Source: a virus
Reading direction: 5' to 3' (one strand)
IMG/VR virus record: IMGVR_UViG_3300001460_000067
Coordinates: 1-38,959 of that record
Length of the DNA: 38,959 nucleotides
Below the pieces are notes generated by a model. That model did no database searches and was not told the DNA's origin. It saw only the letters and a list, made by a program, of their open reading frames with translations. Made by a program: the position numbers and the translations under genes. Below are positions 1,422-33,402 of this stretch, one piece after another (the first letter of the stretch is position 1; every line of letters begins with the position of its first letter).

Positions 1422-4208
1422 TTAAGTTAATTTTCTCCACTTATCTACATACACCTTCCTAAAGCCTTTTTTAACAAGACCTTTTACTAAATACCAATCA
1501 CCTATTTTTCCTTCTTCAACTATTTGTTTACCTATGCGAGTATATTTAAATCTATCTATGGTGCTTATAATTGGACCAGTGTCATCTTCAAAAGTTAAGT
1601 TTAACCATAAGTGATGTCTGTCAACTCTGCGTCCACCTCTTTTAGCTAGGTTGACTGTCTCGTTCATATCTCTTAAATTCTTTTCTGTAAGCTTACCGAA
1701 GAATACAAATCGTCCTGGTCTGTCTGCGTCCAATTCAGCTATGTCTGTAATGTCTGAAACTATGCCATGACTTGATGGGTCTTTTTTAATATGACCAAAC
1801 CTTCTCTCGCATTCGAATATATCATCATACGGAGTAGTGCCTTCATTTAAAAGTTTTTCTTGTCTTGGGGTTAAAGTTATTTTTTCTATGCGTCTATTAA
1901 TAATATCTTCAGCAACTTTTAAGCCTACACCTTTTATATTAGTTAGCCCACCTATTAACTTGCCATCTTGTACCGACCAATTTATTTGAGATAAAAATTT
2001 ATCAAAGGGTCTATACTCAAAACCTTCTTTAACTAATTCTCTTAATAATTTTGTTCCTTGGGCTTCATCCCTAACATTACGCAAACACGCAGCAGCAAAC
2101 TCAAGAGGAAATTTAGACTTAAGAACGCAACACCAATAAGAAAGAAGAGCATAGCTAATAGCATGAGACCTATTAAAAGCCCAAGAGCCCATAGTGTTAA
2201 TATTATCCCATATCCTTTTTGCATCAGTTTCATCAAGACCATTCTCCTTTGCTCCTATTTTAAACCTTTCCCAATATTGGTCAAAGAACTCTTGACCCAA
2301 AGATTTGCTCATTGCTTTACGCAATTGAGATATGTCTTCCCAAGATAACTTACCTACATGACGACCTATTTCCATAACTTGTTCTTGGTATACAACTATG
2401 CCATAAGTTATTTCAGTTATATCTTTTACAATTGGGTGAAGATATTCTATGGGTGATGCTCCTGTGTGTCTACTTATATATTGAGTAGTTCCTCCAGATA
2501 CCAGTGGACCAGGACGACCTAAAGCAGTTAAGGCAGCAACTTCTTCAAACTTGTGCACTTTCATTTGCCTAGTTAAAGATTGTAAAGCATACCCTTCAAA
2601 TTGAAATATACCAGAATACTTTTCATCATTTAAAACTTTAAAAGCTAGTTTATCATCTAATGGATAATCTACTAACTTTTGACGTTCCCATTTGACTTGG
2701 TCTAATACGTCTTGTAGAACTGATAGAGTTCTTAATCCTAAAGCATCTATTTTAAGTAAGTTTAATTTTTCTGCATCATACTTGTCAACTTGTAAAGCTT
2801 GAGTTTGTTCATTAAAAGAGCAATATTGATTAACAGGTTTTTCAGTAACAACTATCCCAGCAGCATGCACCCCATTATGCCTAGCATGAAATTCCATTTG
2901 TGAAGCTATACGCATTTGAGGATATTTCTTTAATATTTCTCTGCCGATATCTAAATCATTAAATGTATCCATAATACAAAAAGCAGCACGAGCATCACCA
3001 CCACTCCTTTCAATGATAGCACCTTTTAAGTCATTGACTTCCCATTGTGGTATATTTAATTCTTTAGCTACTTCAGTAATAGTGCTTTTAGCTTTGTATC
3101 TACTTATTGTACCTAGCTTAGCAACATTAGCATTACCATACTTTTCTCTTAGATAATCATATACCATATCTCTTCTATCATCTTGAAAGTCTATATCAAT
3201 ATCTGGTAAGTCTGCTCTATTAAGATCTATAAATCTTTCAAACAATAAATTATGTACCAGTGGGTCAACATCAGTAATGCCTAACAAATAGCAAACTAAA
3301 GACCCAGCACTACTACCTCTAGCTGGTCCAACTAGCATATGCTCCTTAGCATAGTTAACCATATCAGCTATAACAAAAAAGTAATCCTCATACTTTTTAT
3401 TATCTATTAAACCTAATTCATAAACTAATCTATCATAGTATTTTTTGTCTTTTAGGTTAATATTTAATTTAGTGGCACCTTCTTGGCAAAGTTGTAATAA
3501 TGTCTTTTTACTGTTAAACTTAACCATATTGGCTTGTTTTAATGTCGCTACGCACACTTTAGCTATCGAATAGGTATTATCTATTGCCTCTTTTGGAGCC
3601 CAATTTACACAATCTTTATATTCCCACTCATTTAAAATATGCATAGGTTTTGTTCTATCTGTTCTGTTTCTACCTACTAAAACCTGATAAACTTTTCTAT
3701 CGGATATTGTTGGGTAGTAATTATCGCTAGTAGCTATTAATGGAAACTTTTTAGTTAAACAACTCTTATCACTTATAGGGCTACATTCAGCAAATACATT
3801 TTTATTGGCTTTAGGTAACAATCCCCAATTAGGATTTGGACCACTAAATATTATTACATTATCACTCACATCAAATAATTCTGTGTAGTCTAATCTTGGG
3901 ACATAGTAAAAGTTTTCTTTTTTTAATGATTCAGAGTTTAACCTATATATCTCTTCAAGACCTTTACTATTCTTAGCTAAAAATGTCATATAATTAATAG
4001 GTTGTTTTGTACGTTCTTTACTGTCTTCAACAAAGCCTATTTCAACTCCATAAATTGGTTTTTTGCAGATCTTTGAAAATGGTACATGTCCCCATGTGTT
4101 GTTATCTGTTATAGCTACAGTATCATTATTACAAGTTTCTATAACTTTATTAAGTGGACCATAAGCTTTACGGAAAGAATACTCTGTACGAACTTTTAAA
4201 TTAATCAT
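1422..4208 (-). CDS. DNA polymerase III alpha subunit-like (DnaE-type, C-family) replicative polymerase
   Basis: This is a C-family DNA polymerase of 928 residues, shorter than the roughly 1160 of bacterial DnaE. The N-terminal region (about 1-200) is PHP-like but lacks the metal-binding His pattern, reading KVRTEYS where HxHS would be expected, so intrinsic PHP activity is unlikely. Palm motifs are intact: GPARGSSAGS (294-303), PDIDIDF (335-341) with the catalytic Asp pair, and LKIDALGLRT with the third Asp at 488. GRPGPL (564-569), the LRKAMSK segment (629-635) and FNRSHAISYALLSYW (678-692) are also typical. Residues about 826-928 look like an OB-fold. The start overlaps the upstream DnaQ-type exonuclease gene by 8 bases, so proofreading is probably supplied by that separate protein. 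C-family polymerases are less common than A- or B-family ones in phages of this size. Confidence 0.93.
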   Translation of the reverse strand: MINLKVRTEYSFRKAYGPLNKVIETCNNDTVAITDNNTWGHVPFSKICKKPIYGVEIGFVEDSKERTKQPINYMTFLAKNSKGLEEIYRLNSESLKKENFYYVPRLDYTELFDVSDNVIIFSGPNPNWGLLPKANKNVFAECSPISDKSCLTKKFPLIATSDNYYPTISDRKVYQVLVGRNRTDRTKPMHILNEWEYKDCVNWAPKEAIDNTYSIAKVCVATLKQANMVKFNSKKTLLQLCQEGATKLNINLKDKKYYDRLVYELGLIDNKKYEDYFFVIADMVNYAKEHMLVGPARGSSAGSLVCYLLGITDVDPLVHNLLFERFIDLNRADLPDIDIDFQDDRRDMVYDYLREKYGNANVAKLGTISRYKAKSTITEVAKELNIPQWEVNDLKGAIIERSGGDARAAFCIMDTFNDLDIGREILKKYPQMRIASQMEFHARHNGVHAAGIVVTEKPVNQYCSFNEQTQALQVDKYDAEKLNLLKIDALGLRTLSVLQDVLDQVKWERQKLVDYPLDDKLAFKVLNDEKYSGIFQFEGYALQSLTRQMKVHKFEEVAALTALGRPGPLVSGGTTQYISRHTGASPIEYLHPIVKDITEITYGIVVYQEQVMEIGRHVGKLSWEDISQLRKAMSKSLGQEFFDQYWERFKIGAKENGLDETDAKRIWDNINTMGSWAFNRSHAISYALLSYWCCVLKSKFPLEFAAACLRNVRDEAQGTKLLRELVKEGFEYRPFDKFLSQINWSVQDGKLIGGLTNIKGVGLKVAEDIINRRIEKITLTPRQEKLLNEGTTPYDDIFECERRFGHIKKDPSSHGIVSDITDIAELDADRPGRFVFFGKLTEKNLRDMNETVNLAKRGGRRVDRHHLWLNLTFEDDTGPIISTIDRFKYTRIGKQIVEEGKIGDWYLVKGLVKKGFRKVYVDKWRKLT

Positions 4209-26510: not shown

Positions 26511-26613
26511 TTTTGCTCAATATCAGAAGAACGTTGGTATCGGTGAAGGCTTAAAGTTAGCAATTAACGATATTGATGATATTTTTAAAAAACTAAACAG
26601 AGAGGATGAATAA
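26416..26613 (+). CDS. Small helical protein, 65 aa
   Basis: The start is TTG with GAGG 6 bases upstream. The product (MTITDLLESIKKSLEQKRKN, then LANELIEGRASDFAQYQKNV and GIGEGLKLAINDID) is helical with a layout seen in small phage proteins near head genes: two helices, Y....G..EGL.LA. The role is unknown. It stops one base before the GroES-like gene. Confidence 0.55.
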   Translation: MTITDLLESIKKSLEQKRKNLANELIEGRASDFAQYQKNVGIGEGLKLAINDIDDIFKKLNREDE

Positions 26614-26614
26614 C

Positions 26615-27010
26615 ATGGCTCATCTCCATGAGATAAAATGGGACAACGACCCAGAAACAAACGTACCAAAAAACTTACCAAAACCTACAGGATGGCGAGT
26701 TTTAATTCAACCCCAAGCCCCAAAAGTAAAAACTAAAAGTGGCTTATATTTACCATCACAATCTCAAGACAATGAAGAATATTTAACAGCCCATGGCATT
26801 ATACTTGCTCATGGACCATTGGCTTGGTGTGAAAGAGAAACAGGTCGTCCATGGCATTATGGTCGCTGGGCTAAAGTAGGAAGCCATGTTACTTTTGGTA
26901 AATATGCAGGACAAAAGCTAGTTATAGATAAAGTTAAATTGTTGTTGTTAAATGATGATGAGATAACTTCTGTAATACCAAAAGACTGTAATATTCAAAA
27001 TTATATATAA
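26615..27010 (+). CDS. GroES-like co-chaperonin (Cpn10)
   Basis: The 131-residue protein matches GroES/Cpn10: PTGWRVLIQPQ (about 24-34), a mobile-loop-like KVKTKSGLYLP (37-47), GIILAHGP, and a C-terminal KVGSHVTFGKYAGQKLVIDK then VKLLLLNDDEI. Phage co-chaperonins such as T4 gp31 replace host GroES so that GroEL can fold the major capsid protein; location just before scaffold and capsid genes fits this. The ATG used has GAGG 9 bases upstream; an ATG three codons earlier directly abuts that GAGG. Residues 70-85 (CERETGRPWHYGRW) are an insertion in the dome region. Confidence 0.85.
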   Translation: MAHLHEIKWDNDPETNVPKNLPKPTGWRVLIQPQAPKVKTKSGLYLPSQSQDNEEYLTAHGIILAHGPLAWCERETGRPWHYGRWAKVGSHVTFGKYAGQKLVIDKVKLLLLNDDEITSVIPKDCNIQNYI

Positions 27011-28962: not shown

Positions 28963-29865
28963 ATGGCAATGAATAGAGCACAATTTGCGAAAATGCTAGA
29001 GCCAGGATTGAATACCTTATTCGGTCTTGAGTATGCTAGTTATCCTGAGGAGTACAAAGCAGTTTTTGAAGCTAATACTTCTAACAGGGCATTCGAAGAA
29101 GATGTATTACTAGAGGGATTCGGTAATGCACCTACTAAAACAGAAGGAGCACCAATTAGTTATGATGCAGCAAGCCAGCAATGGACTGCTAGATATCAGC
29201 ACGACACTGTTGCATTAGCCTTTAGTATAACTGAAGAAGCAGAAGAAGATGGACAGTATGGGTCTATCGCTGGCAGATATACAAAAGCTTTAGCAAGGTC
29301 AATGGCTTCAACTAAAGAAATTAAAGCTGCAACTGTTTTAAATACTGCAACAACATCTACTGGTGGTGACGGAGTAAGTTTATTAAATACTTCTCATCCA
29401 ACTTTAAATGGTATCCAAAGTAACACTTTGGCAACTGCTGCAGATTTAAGTGAGACTTCACTAGAAACTATGCTAATTCAAATAGCAGACATGAAAGATG
29501 ATAGAGGGCTAAGAGTAGCTGCACAAGGAACAATGTTAATTATTCCTACTGCATATATTTTTACTGCTCAAAGACTTCTTGAGTCTACTTTAAGAGTTGG
29601 CACAGCTGATAATGATATCAATGCAATTAACTCTGGAGGATATCTTCCAAATGGTTATCATGTAATGAGAAGACTATCAGATAGTGATTCATTCTTTATT
29701 AAAACAGATGTACCTGATGGACTTAAGATGTTCCAAAGAACAGCTTTGAAAAAAGGTATGGAAGGTGATTTTGAAACTGGTAGTGTTCGCTACAAAGTTA
29801 GAGAAAGATACAGTTTTGGTTTCACTGACTGGAGAGGAATATTCGGCACAGAAGGTGGTGCTTAA
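28963..29865 (+). CDS. Major capsid protein (HK97-fold, Mu-like head subunit family)
   Basis: The 300-residue protein contains FGLEYASYPEEYKAVFEANT, then RAFEEDVLLEGFG, APISYDAAS, and a C-terminal VRYKVRERYSFGFTDWRGIF. The pattern (PE.Y..VF...TS.RA.EEDV...GFG) is that of Mu-type and many marine phage major head subunits. Position after scaffold and decoration genes supports it. The mature size may equal the full length, because no prohead protease is seen. It should be the most abundant product; a GC-rich hairpin follows its stop. Confidence 0.9.
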   Translation: MAMNRAQFAKMLEPGLNTLFGLEYASYPEEYKAVFEANTSNRAFEEDVLLEGFGNAPTKTEGAPISYDAASQQWTARYQHDTVALAFSITEEAEEDGQYGSIAGRYTKALARSMASTKEIKAATVLNTATTSTGGDGVSLLNTSHPTLNGIQSNTLATAADLSETSLETMLIQIADMKDDRGLRVAAQGTMLIIPTAYIFTAQRLLESTLRVGTADNDINAINSGGYLPNGYHVMRRLSDSDSFFIKTDVPDGLKMFQRTALKKGMEGDFETGSVRYKVRERYSFGFTDWRGIFGTEGGA

Positions 29866-29882
29866 TACTAACCCTAAAAAGG

Positions 29883-29905
29883 TAGGGGAGTTACATGCTC
29901 CCCTA
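29883..29905 (+). terminator. GC-rich stem-loop after the capsid gene, with a 3-codon mini-frame
   Basis: TAGGGGAG and CTCCCCTA form a perfect 8-bp stem with a 7-base loop, 18 bases after the capsid stop. No U-run follows, so full termination is doubtful. The left arm holds a Shine-Dalgarno-like GGGGAG followed by ATG CTC CCC TAA (29895-29906), 8 bases before the ATG of the 920-aa gene, which has no ribosome-binding site of its own. Confidence 0.6.
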
Positions 29906-29913
29906 ACTTCCTA

Positions 29914-32676
29914 ATGGAAATAAATTTAAATAATAAAGAAGGAGCTCTTCCTTCGGCAGCAGAAATACAAACAGCTAGAAATCTTTTTCCTAATTCAGAG
30001 AAACCAATGGAGTCTTATGAGACATGGAAAAACTCTGGCATGCCTTTAGAAACAACACAAAAATATGGTAGGGCTAGAGGACCAAGTTATCCTAGACCTG
30101 AAAGACCAGCAATAGAATTTACAATAAATCCTAATTTGGGAGTCTTTGGTAATAGAGAATTTAGAATCAATAGACCTAAATACTCATATACAGAAGACAC
30201 TCCTCAAAGAGAATCAGATAAATATAGTACATTATATGGTTTAAAAACCTTACCATTATATTTTAATAAACTCACTGAACCTGTAGCTATAGGTATAGAT
30301 TTATTAGAGGGTATAGCTACAAGAGATCCAATTCAAACAGGTACAGCAGCAATATTATCACAATCTATGAGCCCTAAGGCTCAAGCTTTAATTGCTGCAG
30401 CTTCTGTGTTTATGCCTTTTGATGCTGAGGCAGTTAAGATATTTGGTTCTCCTGAATTATTTAGTGGTGTAGTAGAGAAAATAAAAGGTGCTCCTAGTAA
30501 AGCCAGAGGAGAAGAACTCAAACAAAAGCCTGAGAACTGGATGGGTGGTATGTTAAAAGGTGGCACTACTCTTAAAATTAACAATATGGAAATACCTATA
30601 AAAACTAGTGAAGTTGAAAATATGATGAGGCTTATTAAAAATAATAAGCTGGACGACAAATTATTGACTAAAGATGAAATGGTAAAAGTTTTAGAAGACC
30701 AATATTATACATCCTTTATATCTGAAAAAACTAGCCCTGCTTATTTTAATAGGCTAGGTGATATGGAAGTTACTAAAATAGAATTACCTAAAGATGGAGA
30801 TGTAACTAAAGATTTATTAGAAATATCTAATTATACAACCAGAGATGCAGGAGTTCATCATGGTGGTGAGCAAGGCATCATAAGCCACTCACTAATTAGA
30901 AAAGATAATAATGCTTACGAAATTACAGAAATACAAAGTGACATGGCTTCAGATGCACACAAGTTCGGTATGCGAGGTAGTCCTAAAAATAATTTCTTTC
31001 AAGATTTAATGAAACAATTTAAAAGAAGAAATAGAGATGCTCCTGCATTGGATTTTTTTGGAGGGTCTGCTATTGAACGTAGTCCTGCAGGAATACAAAA
31101 TGATGATTATTTGCCTAATATATTTGAAATTTATACATCTTCACAATACGGCAAAGCTCCTTCTTCAGTATTATCAGGAAATAGTGCAAAAACTAGAAAC
31201 CTAATGATTGAAAAATATGGTAGGGGTGATGCTATTGGGGGTGGCAATAATGTTGATACTTATGCTGCTGCAATATTTGATAAGTATAAAAATGCCATTA
31301 ACGAAGTTGATGATTTATACACAAATGATTATTTAGAAAAAATTTATGATTTATCTACTGATAAAGCATTTAAAAATAAATATAATAAAGAAGAATTTGC
31401 CACTTCTACTAGAAAAGCAATGAAAGACAAAATAGTAAGGAGCATAAGAACAGAAAATCCAACAGGAGCAAATGTTACTGAAATATTAAACAACATAGCT
31501 AGTGGTTACACAACATCTCCTAAGTCTTTGTGGGAGAGTGTTCATAAAAATTTAACTAAAAAAGTTGAAGACTTACACTCTGTTAGTGATGAGTTGGGAG
31601 AAGATGCTGCAGATTTAGAAGTGTTTAATGAATTTAAAAAAGTCGATTTTGACTTAAGAAGGTTTTCAAAACACATGCAAAATAATCCTTTAAATTCAGG
31701 CAGTGTACCAGCACAAACTCCTTTAATGAAGAATTTAGACTATGTTGAGTTTGAAATAAAAAAGCATCTTGTAAAAGCTGCAAAACAAGACCAACCTAAA
31801 TTTATGCTCCCAGGAGAAGAACCTTTAAGATATTGGGCAAAAAGAGGTCAAGATGAAAAATTTTTAAAAACTATTTACAGTTTAGCACCTGATAGTAAAA
31901 AAGGTTATAAAGGTAAAATAGGTCAAGTTTTAACTAAACTTAGTAAAAAGTATAACATACCTTTTAGGCTAGAGGGTAAAGTAGACTTAGATAATAGAAA
32001 TTTATATAATATATTTAAAGAAGAAAAGAATAATTTAGAGAACTTAGCAGACCTATCAGACTCGAACTATAGAATTATTGGCAATAGTGGCACATTTAAT
32101 AATTTAGACACTAGCCCTTACGAAGCTCTTTTAACTGATGCCACTCAAAAGCAAACAGACAGAATTAGAGATTTAAGAGAAGAGTATGCAGATAGTGTAT
32201 CAGAAGGTGGCGGTGACTTTTCTTCTGCAGAAGCGAGTTTTAATAATAATATACTTGAAGATCCTCAAGATTTTATTTATCAATCTGATATGATGGGTGT
32301 TTTGGATTGGGAAGGTATGTCAGAAGGTTTTGACCTTATGGCTAAAAATACAGAGTCTAAAAGTGTAAAGTTAGCATCAGAAATGTTTAGCAACATAACT
32401 AAAAAAACTAAGCAAAATTACGAAACCAATCTACAACTTATAGAAGAATTTGCTGATGATGCAAATAATGCTGAAGACTTGTTTAATATAGTTTTAATAA
32501 AAGCTTCTCGGAAAGCAGAATCAGATTACATAAATAGCTTACCTGAAATTAAGAAAAACGAACTTATGGATTTAGGTATTATAGGCATGGATCAAAATGC
32601 TAGGTTTGTAATTGAATTACCTGATGTTGTAAAAGAGCAGATTATTGAACAAGGCTTTCCAATAACTGGTTTATAA
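29914..32676 (+). CDS. Large protein with EIQSD-type polyvalent-protein domain, 920 aa
   Basis: The protein lies between capsid and structural genes. Residues 1-140 are a Pro-rich, charged region. Residues about 138-170 are an Ala-rich hydrophobic stretch (DPIQTGTAAILSQSMSPKAQ, ALIAAASVFMPF), possibly membrane-active. Residues about 200-350 match a domain type found in phage polyvalent (MuF-associated) proteins: ENWMGGMLKGG, LTKDEMVKVLEDQY, SHSLIRKDN, and the hallmark YEITEIQSDMA (EIQSD at 339-343). A roughly 250-residue insertion follows, and the second half of that domain (about 605-685: DYVEFEIKKHLVKAAKQ, then GEEPLRYWAKRGQ) resumes. Residues 690-920 are unassigned. It is probably packaged and injected; the call is from motif resemblance only. 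No Shine-Dalgarno sequence precedes its ATG. Confidence 0.6.
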   Translation: MEINLNNKEGALPSAAEIQTARNLFPNSEKPMESYETWKNSGMPLETTQKYGRARGPSYPRPERPAIEFTINPNLGVFGNREFRINRPKYSYTEDTPQRESDKYSTLYGLKTLPLYFNKLTEPVAIGIDLLEGIATRDPIQTGTAAILSQSMSPKAQALIAAASVFMPFDAEAVKIFGSPELFSGVVEKIKGAPSKARGEELKQKPENWMGGMLKGGTTLKINNMEIPIKTSEVENMMRLIKNNKLDDKLLTKDEMVKVLEDQYYTSFISEKTSPAYFNRLGDMEVTKIELPKDGDVTKDLLEISNYTTRDAGVHHGGEQGIISHSLIRKDNNAYEITEIQSDMASDAHKFGMRGSPKNNFFQDLMKQFKRRNRDAPALDFFGGSAIERSPAGIQNDDYLPNIFEIYTSSQYGKAPSSVLSGNSAKTRNLMIEKYGRGDAIGGGNNVDTYAAAIFDKYKNAINEVDDLYTNDYLEKIYDLSTDKAFKNKYNKEEFATSTRKAMKDKIVRSIRTENPTGANVTEILNNIASGYTTSPKSLWESVHKNLTKKVEDLHSVSDELGEDAADLEVFNEFKKVDFDLRRFSKHMQNNPLNSGSVPAQTPLMKNLDYVEFEIKKHLVKAAKQDQPKFMLPGEEPLRYWAKRGQDEKFLKTIYSLAPDSKKGYKGKIGQVLTKLSKKYNIPFRLEGKVDLDNRNLYNIFKEEKNNLENLADLSDSNYRIIGNSGTFNNLDTSPYEALLTDATQKQTDRIRDLREEYADSVSEGGGDFSSAEASFNNNILEDPQDFIYQSDMMGVLDWEGMSEGFDLMAKNTESKSVKLASEMFSNITKKTKQNYETNLQLIEEFADDANNAEDLFNIVLIKASRKAESDYINSLPEIKKNELMDLGIIGMDQNARFVIELPDVVKEQIIEQGFPITGL

Positions 32677-32772: not shown

Positions 32773-33402
32773 ATGGCTAAAACAACTTTTTCAGGACCAG
32801 TCAGATCTGAAAACGGATTTCAAATGGTTTCAAAAAATGCAACCACAGGCACAGTAACTGTAACTAGTGGTAATAAAATGATTAATGAAGCTGTAGGCAG
32901 TGCAGGTATTGAAGGAACAGCAGGAACTTATGTTACTCAAGTAAGTAGATTTAAAAGTGATGTAGATACTAATGTAAATATAGTTAAAACAACTATTATG
33001 ATAGACTTAACAGGATTAAGAGATGGTGGTACTGCTGGTGACATTATCGGTAAGGATGGCAGTGGTGTTGCTTATATTGCTAGAGTAACCACAGCTGACC
33101 AAGGTACAATTTTTGGTTTGACTATGGAGTGTGTTGAAGCACCTGCTGGTGGTGGTGCAGATATTGATTTATACTCTGCTACTGAAGGCACTGGTGTAAA
33201 TGATACTGCTATAGGTGATTTAACAGAAACTGAATTAATTAATGGTGGTACACAAGCAGCAGGAACAAGAACAGCATCCGCAGCAACAAATGTTCTTGCA
33301 GCTGATCAATATTTATATTTAGTAGGTCAAGGCACTGGTCATGCAGCATACACAGCAGGAAGATTTATTATTGAGATAACAGGCTTTGATGTAGCTAGTT
33401 AA
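32773..33402 (+). CDS. Virion structural protein (decoration-type), 209 aa
   Basis: The product begins MAKTTFSGPVRSENGFQMVS and is Gly/Thr/Ala-rich and beta-rich, with AGTYVTQVSRFKSDVDTNVN, IVKTTIMIDLTGLRDGGT and a C-terminal YTAGRFIIEITGFDVAS. It resembles marine phage structural proteins of unknown role (perhaps head fibre or decoration). The strongest ribosome-binding site in the window precedes it, implying an abundant product. Confidence 0.6.
   Translation: MAKTTFSGPVRSENGFQMVSKNATTGTVTVTSGNKMINEAVGSAGIEGTAGTYVTQVSRFKSDVDTNVNIVKTTIMIDLTGLRDGGTAGDIIGKDGSGVAYIARVTTADQGTIFGLTMECVEAPAGGGADIDLYSATEGTGVNDTAIGDLTETELINGGTQAAGTRTASAATNVLAADQYLYLVGQGTGHAAYTAGRFIIEITGFDVAS

Follow-up and report, generated by a model that had tools for sequence, protein, structure and literature searches.

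The protein of 920 residues encoded directly downstream of the major capsid gene in a marine phage record, IMGVR_UViG_3300001460_000067 (38,959 bases, analysed over its whole length and hereafter called the window), very probably contains a member of a common phage domain family marked by the motif EIQSD, and this domain is predicted to adopt the fold of the GNAT acyltransferases. On balance, we favour the view that the gene is accessory cargo of the head module of an HTVC023P/CRP-901-like phage, and that its product, an N-terminal module joined to a twice-split EIQSD domain of GNAT fold, would be packaged and act early in infection.

The 920-residue protein gene and its phage group

An initial annotation, made from the letters of the window without database searches, had described a 920-residue protein right after the capsid gene, and this description held. 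The ORF (29914-32676, plus strand) is open from its ATG to the stop codon and starts 48 bases after the end of the capsid gene (Table 1). Eleven further viral contigs encode the protein at 55-100% identity, making 12 marine contigs with the window, and in every contig whose flank there is present the gene lies directly 3' of the capsid gene. The gene is under purifying selection, strongest in the core blocks, where dN/dS is low.

The portal protein of the window phage, a member of the PHROG 1216 family, shares 65% identity with those of the Roseobacter phages CRP-901/902 and about 38% with those of the pelagiphages HTVC023P/027P, which places its marine group close to the CRP-901 and HTVC023P groups, both abundant in the global ocean (PMC10149686). 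Positions 26606-27010 hold the positional counterpart of the co-chaperonin GroES annotated just upstream of the capsid genes in CRP-902 and HTVC023P, and the left arm of the window carries an ORF of 928 residues (1422-4208, minus strand).

Table 1. Features at the capsid junction of the window and along the 920-residue protein (strand names follow predicted models)
Feature	Position	Strand	Evidence
Major capsid protein gene, directly upstream	28963..29865	+	Pfam Phage_capsid_4 E 1.5e-14; PHROG 371 (major head protein) 6e-20
Hairpin between capsid stop codon and ATG of the 920-residue protein gene	29883..29905	+	MFE -20.7 kcal/mol for 29862-29925, z -3.8
920-residue protein gene, whole	29914..32676	+	complete ORF; in 11 other contigs; dN/dS <1 in most regions
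Putative N-terminal module, residues 1-177	29914..30444	+	190-aa protein on its own at the corresponding site of L212; synteny
Residues 178-295, helical lead-in and predicted beta-2 block (FSGVVEKIKG...PENWMGGML...LTKDEM...VTKIELP)	30445..30798	+	conservation, dN/dS, weak profile match
Residues 296-356, predicted beta-3/beta-4 block with H315, H325 and EIQSD 339-343	30799..30981	+	unforced alignment; hhalign P 0.006-0.01
Insertion 1 (residues 357-595), largely helical and fast evolving	30982..31698	+	identity, dN/dS, helices in model
Residues 596-690, predicted alpha-3/beta-5/alpha-4/beta-6 (VPAQTPLMKNLDYVEFEIKKHLVKAAK...LPGEEPLRYW...YKGKIGQVLTKLSKKYNIPFRLEG)	31699..31983	+	85-89% conserved
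Insertion 2, residues 691-893, helical, between predicted beta-6 and beta-7	31984..32592	+	32-61% identity; model helices 695-886
Residues 894-920, predicted C-terminal beta-7 and helix (ARFVIELPDVVKEQIIEQGFPITGL), closing the domain	32593..32673	+	match to ITPEMR..GQPLF of the parent family
Head decoration-type gene, directly 3' of the capsid gene in insert-less relatives	32773..33402	+	role inferred from position, junction survey

The capsid junction

The 920-residue protein gene is an accessory insert. A survey of the corresponding junction covered 80 loci whose capsid proteins share 82-88% identity, and 76 of these loci had more than 500 bases downstream. None of these 76 relatives held the gene at the junction, a count that gives no frequency for the whole group since the survey may omit the records closest to the window. 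At most of the surveyed junctions the decoration-type gene comes next, about 80-145 bases on, and some hold other small genes. The gene was likewise absent from the capsid junctions of CRP-902 and HTVC023P, and the parts of these two phages that were read contained no EIQSD-like motif. Unrelated small genes lie between capsid and decoration genes in L155, L166, L168, L178, L199, L201, L203 and L212; those found at the junction include genes for proteins of 133-146 residues with MKKEQVAFIYMSQW, 190 residues (MAYVDNHPGEANYY) and 199 residues (MTIATNNSNELFEM). Because unrelated genes occupy one and the same junction, accessory genes of the head module may be exchanged there, and the junction appears to be a place where such genes are swapped.

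The region of initiation had been called unusual and taken as a sign of a packaged effector, a point that we reject because relatives lacking the gene share the post-capsid hairpin, which is thus an ordinary feature of the phage group. A strong hairpin, of differing sequence, was present in all seven gene-less relatives checked (L150, L152, L160, L171, L204, L217 and L226), as well as in the window (29866-29913), and these hairpins probably serve in common as a terminator or to stabilise the mRNA. The ATG of the 920-residue protein gene is not visibly preceded by a good ribosome site, so expression of the gene may be low.

Domain organisation of the protein

The motifs LTKDE (residues 251-255), SHSLIRKDN (324-332) and EIQSD (339-343, nucleotides 30928-30942) are followed by EFEIKKHLVKAAKQ (612-625) and GEEPLRYW (634-641), confirming that the later half of the domain comes about 250 residues after EIQSD, as the initial annotation had it. 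Its account of a domain split by one insertion was right as to residues 357-595 and overlooked a second insertion (691-893) as well as the segment that closes the domain at the C-terminus (894-920). Nor is such a split peculiar to this protein, since the parent family described below has variable inserts at the same place.

Conservation follows this division. Residues 201-295 are the most conserved stretch of the window family (92-95% in the more distant relatives), and dN/dS was 0.07-0.26 for residues 178-295, 0.25-0.47 for residues 296-360 and 0.13-0.18 for residues 596-690. In contrast to the core, where the more distant relatives remain 80-95% identical, insertion 1 falls to 50-52% identity, with dN/dS of 0.61-0.66. 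Fast-evolving insertions around a constant core suggest a surface near a fixed activity that is under changing pressure.

To judge from its sequence relatives and synteny, the segment of residues 1-177 is a separable module. The only stand-alone version at a surveyed junction, in locus L212, is an ORF of 190 residues which begins 46 bases 3' of the capsid gene and terminates close to the point at which the EIQSD domain would start with its lead-in; BLASTP matched it to the window protein over residues 98-147 (E 3e-7). A search for further copies of the module yielded nothing beyond L212 and a single truncated relative. The hydrophobic N-terminal segment, which had been read as a mark of an effector, is assigned to this module, and the earlier claim is not supported as it was worded.

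The EIQSD domain family

A scan of viral contigs seeded with the motif EIQSDWHQ recovered the parent family from at least 120 contigs. The long domain shared by its members begins with a lead-in module, followed by YxLPGGxNYREiLLTLP and SsHxxxPNvLAHxR...EEIQSDWHQ, after which a first variable insert leads to vPdAPFKktWhELalKR...AAenGYDrIAwTtGxqQAeRY, a second to GGEGMKgFYDKiLP..KKyGAkV and a third to ITPeMR..GqPLF. No Pfam model exists for this domain, and no paper naming it was found in the literature searched. Several EIQSD proteins share one polypeptide with LPD22, ART-PolyVal, PBECR5 or RadC, and the domain therefore occurs in polyvalent proteins as these were defined by Iyer et al. 2017 (PMC5512222). 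The initial annotation had assigned EIQSD and its flanking segments to the core of a large polyvalent-protein-associated domain (LPD). The idea that EIQSD and the later half belong to a single phage domain which occurs in polyvalent proteins was borne out, while a numbered LPD was not identified, since no Pfam LPD model matches the window protein and no Pfam model of any kind matches the parent domain.

The genes of other members lie in a head module. A PHROG 1216 portal flanks the EIQSD gene in 7 of the 12 loci scanned, five of which also have the large terminase beside it; the window phage has the same portal family, with its 920-residue protein gene placed after the capsid gene and not beside terminase and portal. 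In ct7L0027 (MW202675) the EIQSD protein UOF80349.1 is encoded just after the portal and an M15 peptidase, in a module with GroES and the capsid gene. The gene for UOF80349.1 (L145 8532-11075; MW202675 42531-45074) encodes an EIQSD-type domain and then a second C-terminal region, and is flanked by the portal and M15 peptidase on one side and, on the other, by a gene whose product is labelled type I restriction enzyme. In the SAR11 phage HTVC028P, gp34 adjoins proteins annotated as internal virion proteins. This EIQSD-type protein of 954 residues (L144 7078-9942), annotated as hypothetical, reads EMQSDLLQ and is nevertheless similar to a seed member (E 7e-12), so that WHQ after EIQSD is not family-defining.

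Relationship of the 920-residue protein to the EIQSD family

We are confident, short of certainty, that the window protein belongs to this family. When the window family was aligned with 20 typical members by MAFFT (27 sequences), blocks 2, 3 and 5 fell into register unforced, and H315, H325, E339-D343, P603, K616, A622, G914 and P916 were identical in all 27 rows. As in typical members (such as L037, L015, UOF80349.1 and HTVC028P gp34), EIQSD lies on a strand, which it ends in the model of the window protein (residues 334-341), with two conserved histidines upstream; the P...K...A block before and on a helix, the final G-x-P, the order of the blocks and the insert junctions are also shared. 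The window protein differs from them in lacking WHQ (MAS follows EIQSD), FYDK and GGEGM, and in having two very large helical insertions and an N-terminal module of its own. The downstream blocks occur in order, with the best match to B4 at residue 661 and to B5 at residue 898, where the model has a strand (897-901) and a helix (904-913); B3, aligned by MAFFT, needs one gap and was missed by the ungapped scan. Residues 596-690 align with VPDAPFKKTWHELALKR...GYDRIAWTTG..QAERY and FYDKILP..LNKYGKKYGAKV of the parent family.

It could be argued that EIQSD and the later segment resemble the family by coincidence, in a helical phage protein that has no relation to it. Whole-protein scans against Pfam, PHROGs, NCBIfam, PADLOC and PDB sequences indeed returned chance matches only, with no LPD model in the Pfam hmmscan, and tblastn against annotated phages up to E 5 found nothing meaningful, one match at 0.02 being to the tail fiber of HTVC022P. 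HMMER scores against the parent family were near zero and HMMER block scans were insensitive. Pairwise statistics were modest. Profile-profile comparison of the window family with the parent family by hhalign gave P 0.006-0.01 for the local and 0.0008 for the global score; the lead-in module taken alone matched the parent lead-in weakly (P 0.014 when set against the right segment, 0.17 for the whole protein), and the structural model of the window protein is of low confidence. However, only 2 of 300 column-shuffle controls of the excised profile scored as high as the local match, and the score of an ordered search with the three downstream blocks, leaving out EIQSD, was reached by no more than 4 of 2000 shuffled sequences and by 2 of the 341 stretches of real proteins. 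The blocks so mapped are, moreover, the conserved parts of the window family, which counts in favour of membership, and the model resembled GNATs in all of its best 50 matches. Taken with the portal family that the window phage has in common with typical members, these results make coincidence improbable.

A predicted GNAT fold

A short typical member was modelled with AlphaFold2 from an alignment of 58 sequences, giving a pLDDT of 87.9 and a pTM of 0.81. Foldseek against the PDB found nothing at E <0.001, the best rows being mostly GNATs or proteins with a GNAT domain. With VIA-align, the best 50 PDB rows were GNATs without exception (Z 7.8-10.1, up to 142 residues aligned), and the top matches were isocitrate lyase 2, through its GNAT-like domain, and two toxins that acetylate tRNA, AtaT and TacT3. 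The modelled elements run from beta-1, helices, beta-2 (NYRExLLTLP), beta-3 (NvLAHxR) and beta-4, ending in EIQSD, through an insert to alpha-3 (WxxLAxKR), beta-5, alpha-4, beta-6, an insert, beta-7 and a C-terminal helix. In the model this is the GNAT order, the strand names being our own assignment.

The model of the window protein had a mean pLDDT of 53.9, with 70-90 in several of the mapped blocks. Its best 50 PDB rows were all GNATs, at middling Z values of 6.3-8.2 that are near the level for models without a true match; the model is also not independent of the first, because its alignment included typical members. Most of these matches span residues from about 127 to about 903 and cover both halves and the C-terminal strand, so that in this low-confidence prediction the two halves, which the initial annotation had proposed to check for packing, build one fold. 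The first GNAT strand, placed at residue 127 with a pLDDT of about 30-40, is doubtful and probably wrong because the lead-in was misaligned. In the predicted split fold, insertion 1 would sit between beta-4, ending in EIQSD, and alpha-3. No match to GNATs or the PDB was found at the level of sequence, and the assignment of a GNAT (acyl-CoA acyltransferase) fold to the EIQSD domain is therefore one supported by structure prediction. Such a fold appears to be unrecorded for the domain in the sources searched and may be known elsewhere.

The likeness to GNATs such as the C-terminal domain of isocitrate lyase 2, AtaT/TacT/KacT, GCN5, RimI and NatD is one of predicted fold only. They differ from the EIQSD family, in which the main variable insert stands in place of the loop after beta-4, at the position of the GNAT CoA pyrophosphate loop, and from the window protein with its two insertions splitting the fold. 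A Q/RxxGxG/A CoA loop was not evident by eye between beta-4 and alpha-3; EIQSD is followed by GRxxGY in typical members, where the model places GRxxG in a helix, and by HKFG in the window protein.

This bears on a rather unlikely reading, in which the domain is a degenerate pseudoenzyme of GNAT fold that binds a ligand or partner without acyl transfer, as a sensor, an inhibitor or a structural plug of the virion. An obvious CoA pyrophosphate loop is lacking and the variable insert fills its position throughout the family, MAS replaces WHQ in the window protein, and the closest match in fold, a structure solved with acetyl-CoA, is the GNAT-like domain at the C-terminus of isocitrate lyase 2. 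That domain has a regulatory role. Against this, the H, E, Q, S and D residues vary little or not at all among members of the family, as expected of an active or ligand site. Acyl transfer by the window protein remains the favoured reading, and catalysis may have been lost.

Proposed role in infection

According to the favoured reading, the 920-residue protein would be made late and in small amounts. Once packaged in the head, for which its N-terminal module may be responsible, it would be ejected with the DNA and act early on a host target. Its gene context makes a packaged effector plausible. Late synthesis beside the capsid gene, the head and internal-virion settings of the relatives and the chains shared with effector domains together point to a protein that is carried by the particle and delivered early, from which we infer both packaging and ejection. 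The most likely reaction would be acylation of a host protein or RNA, as is thought for phage and polyvalent GNATs; GNATs in polyvalent proteins have been proposed to acylate host proteins (PMC5512222). Rac of phage phiKMV is a phage GNAT with the same proposed activity, and it and other phage GNATs have been proposed to modify host machinery (PMC7824862). The passage on Rac consulted there does not report packaging, which we propose for the window protein.

An unlikely alternative is that the protein, made late, works in the producing cell as a helper of head assembly or a modifier of the host and is never packaged. Its direct link to the capsid gene would suit such a role, and the co-chaperonin GroES, a non-virion helper, shares the module in CRP-902. 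The location of a relative within the internal virion protein cluster of HTVC028P argues the other way, as do relatives within polyvalent proteins carrying ART-PolyVal, PBECR5 and LPD22, which are predicted to be packaged (PMC5512222). The window protein resembles polyvalent proteins in its phage head context and in relatives that share chains with LPD22, ART-PolyVal, PBECR5 and RadC (PMC5512222). It differs from them in having one recognisable effector-type domain, of predicted GNAT fold, joined to an uncharacterised N-terminal module in place of several known domains; a polyvalent protein carries at least two distinct conflict-type domains in one chain.

More tentatively, the EIQSD proteins as a whole could be a large unnamed clade of GNAT-fold enzymes, encoded in head modules and delivered with the DNA, in which a variable insertion has taken the place of the CoA loop; the marine version would then be an extreme one, its two hypervariable helical insertions reflecting an evolutionary arms race against host factors in which the activity itself stays constant. 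The predicted fold offers a testable activity for a very common phage domain without a Pfam model, and the EIQSD proteins encoded beside portal and terminase in many phages become candidate injected effectors. HTVC028P gp34 is a good candidate for detection in virions by proteomics.
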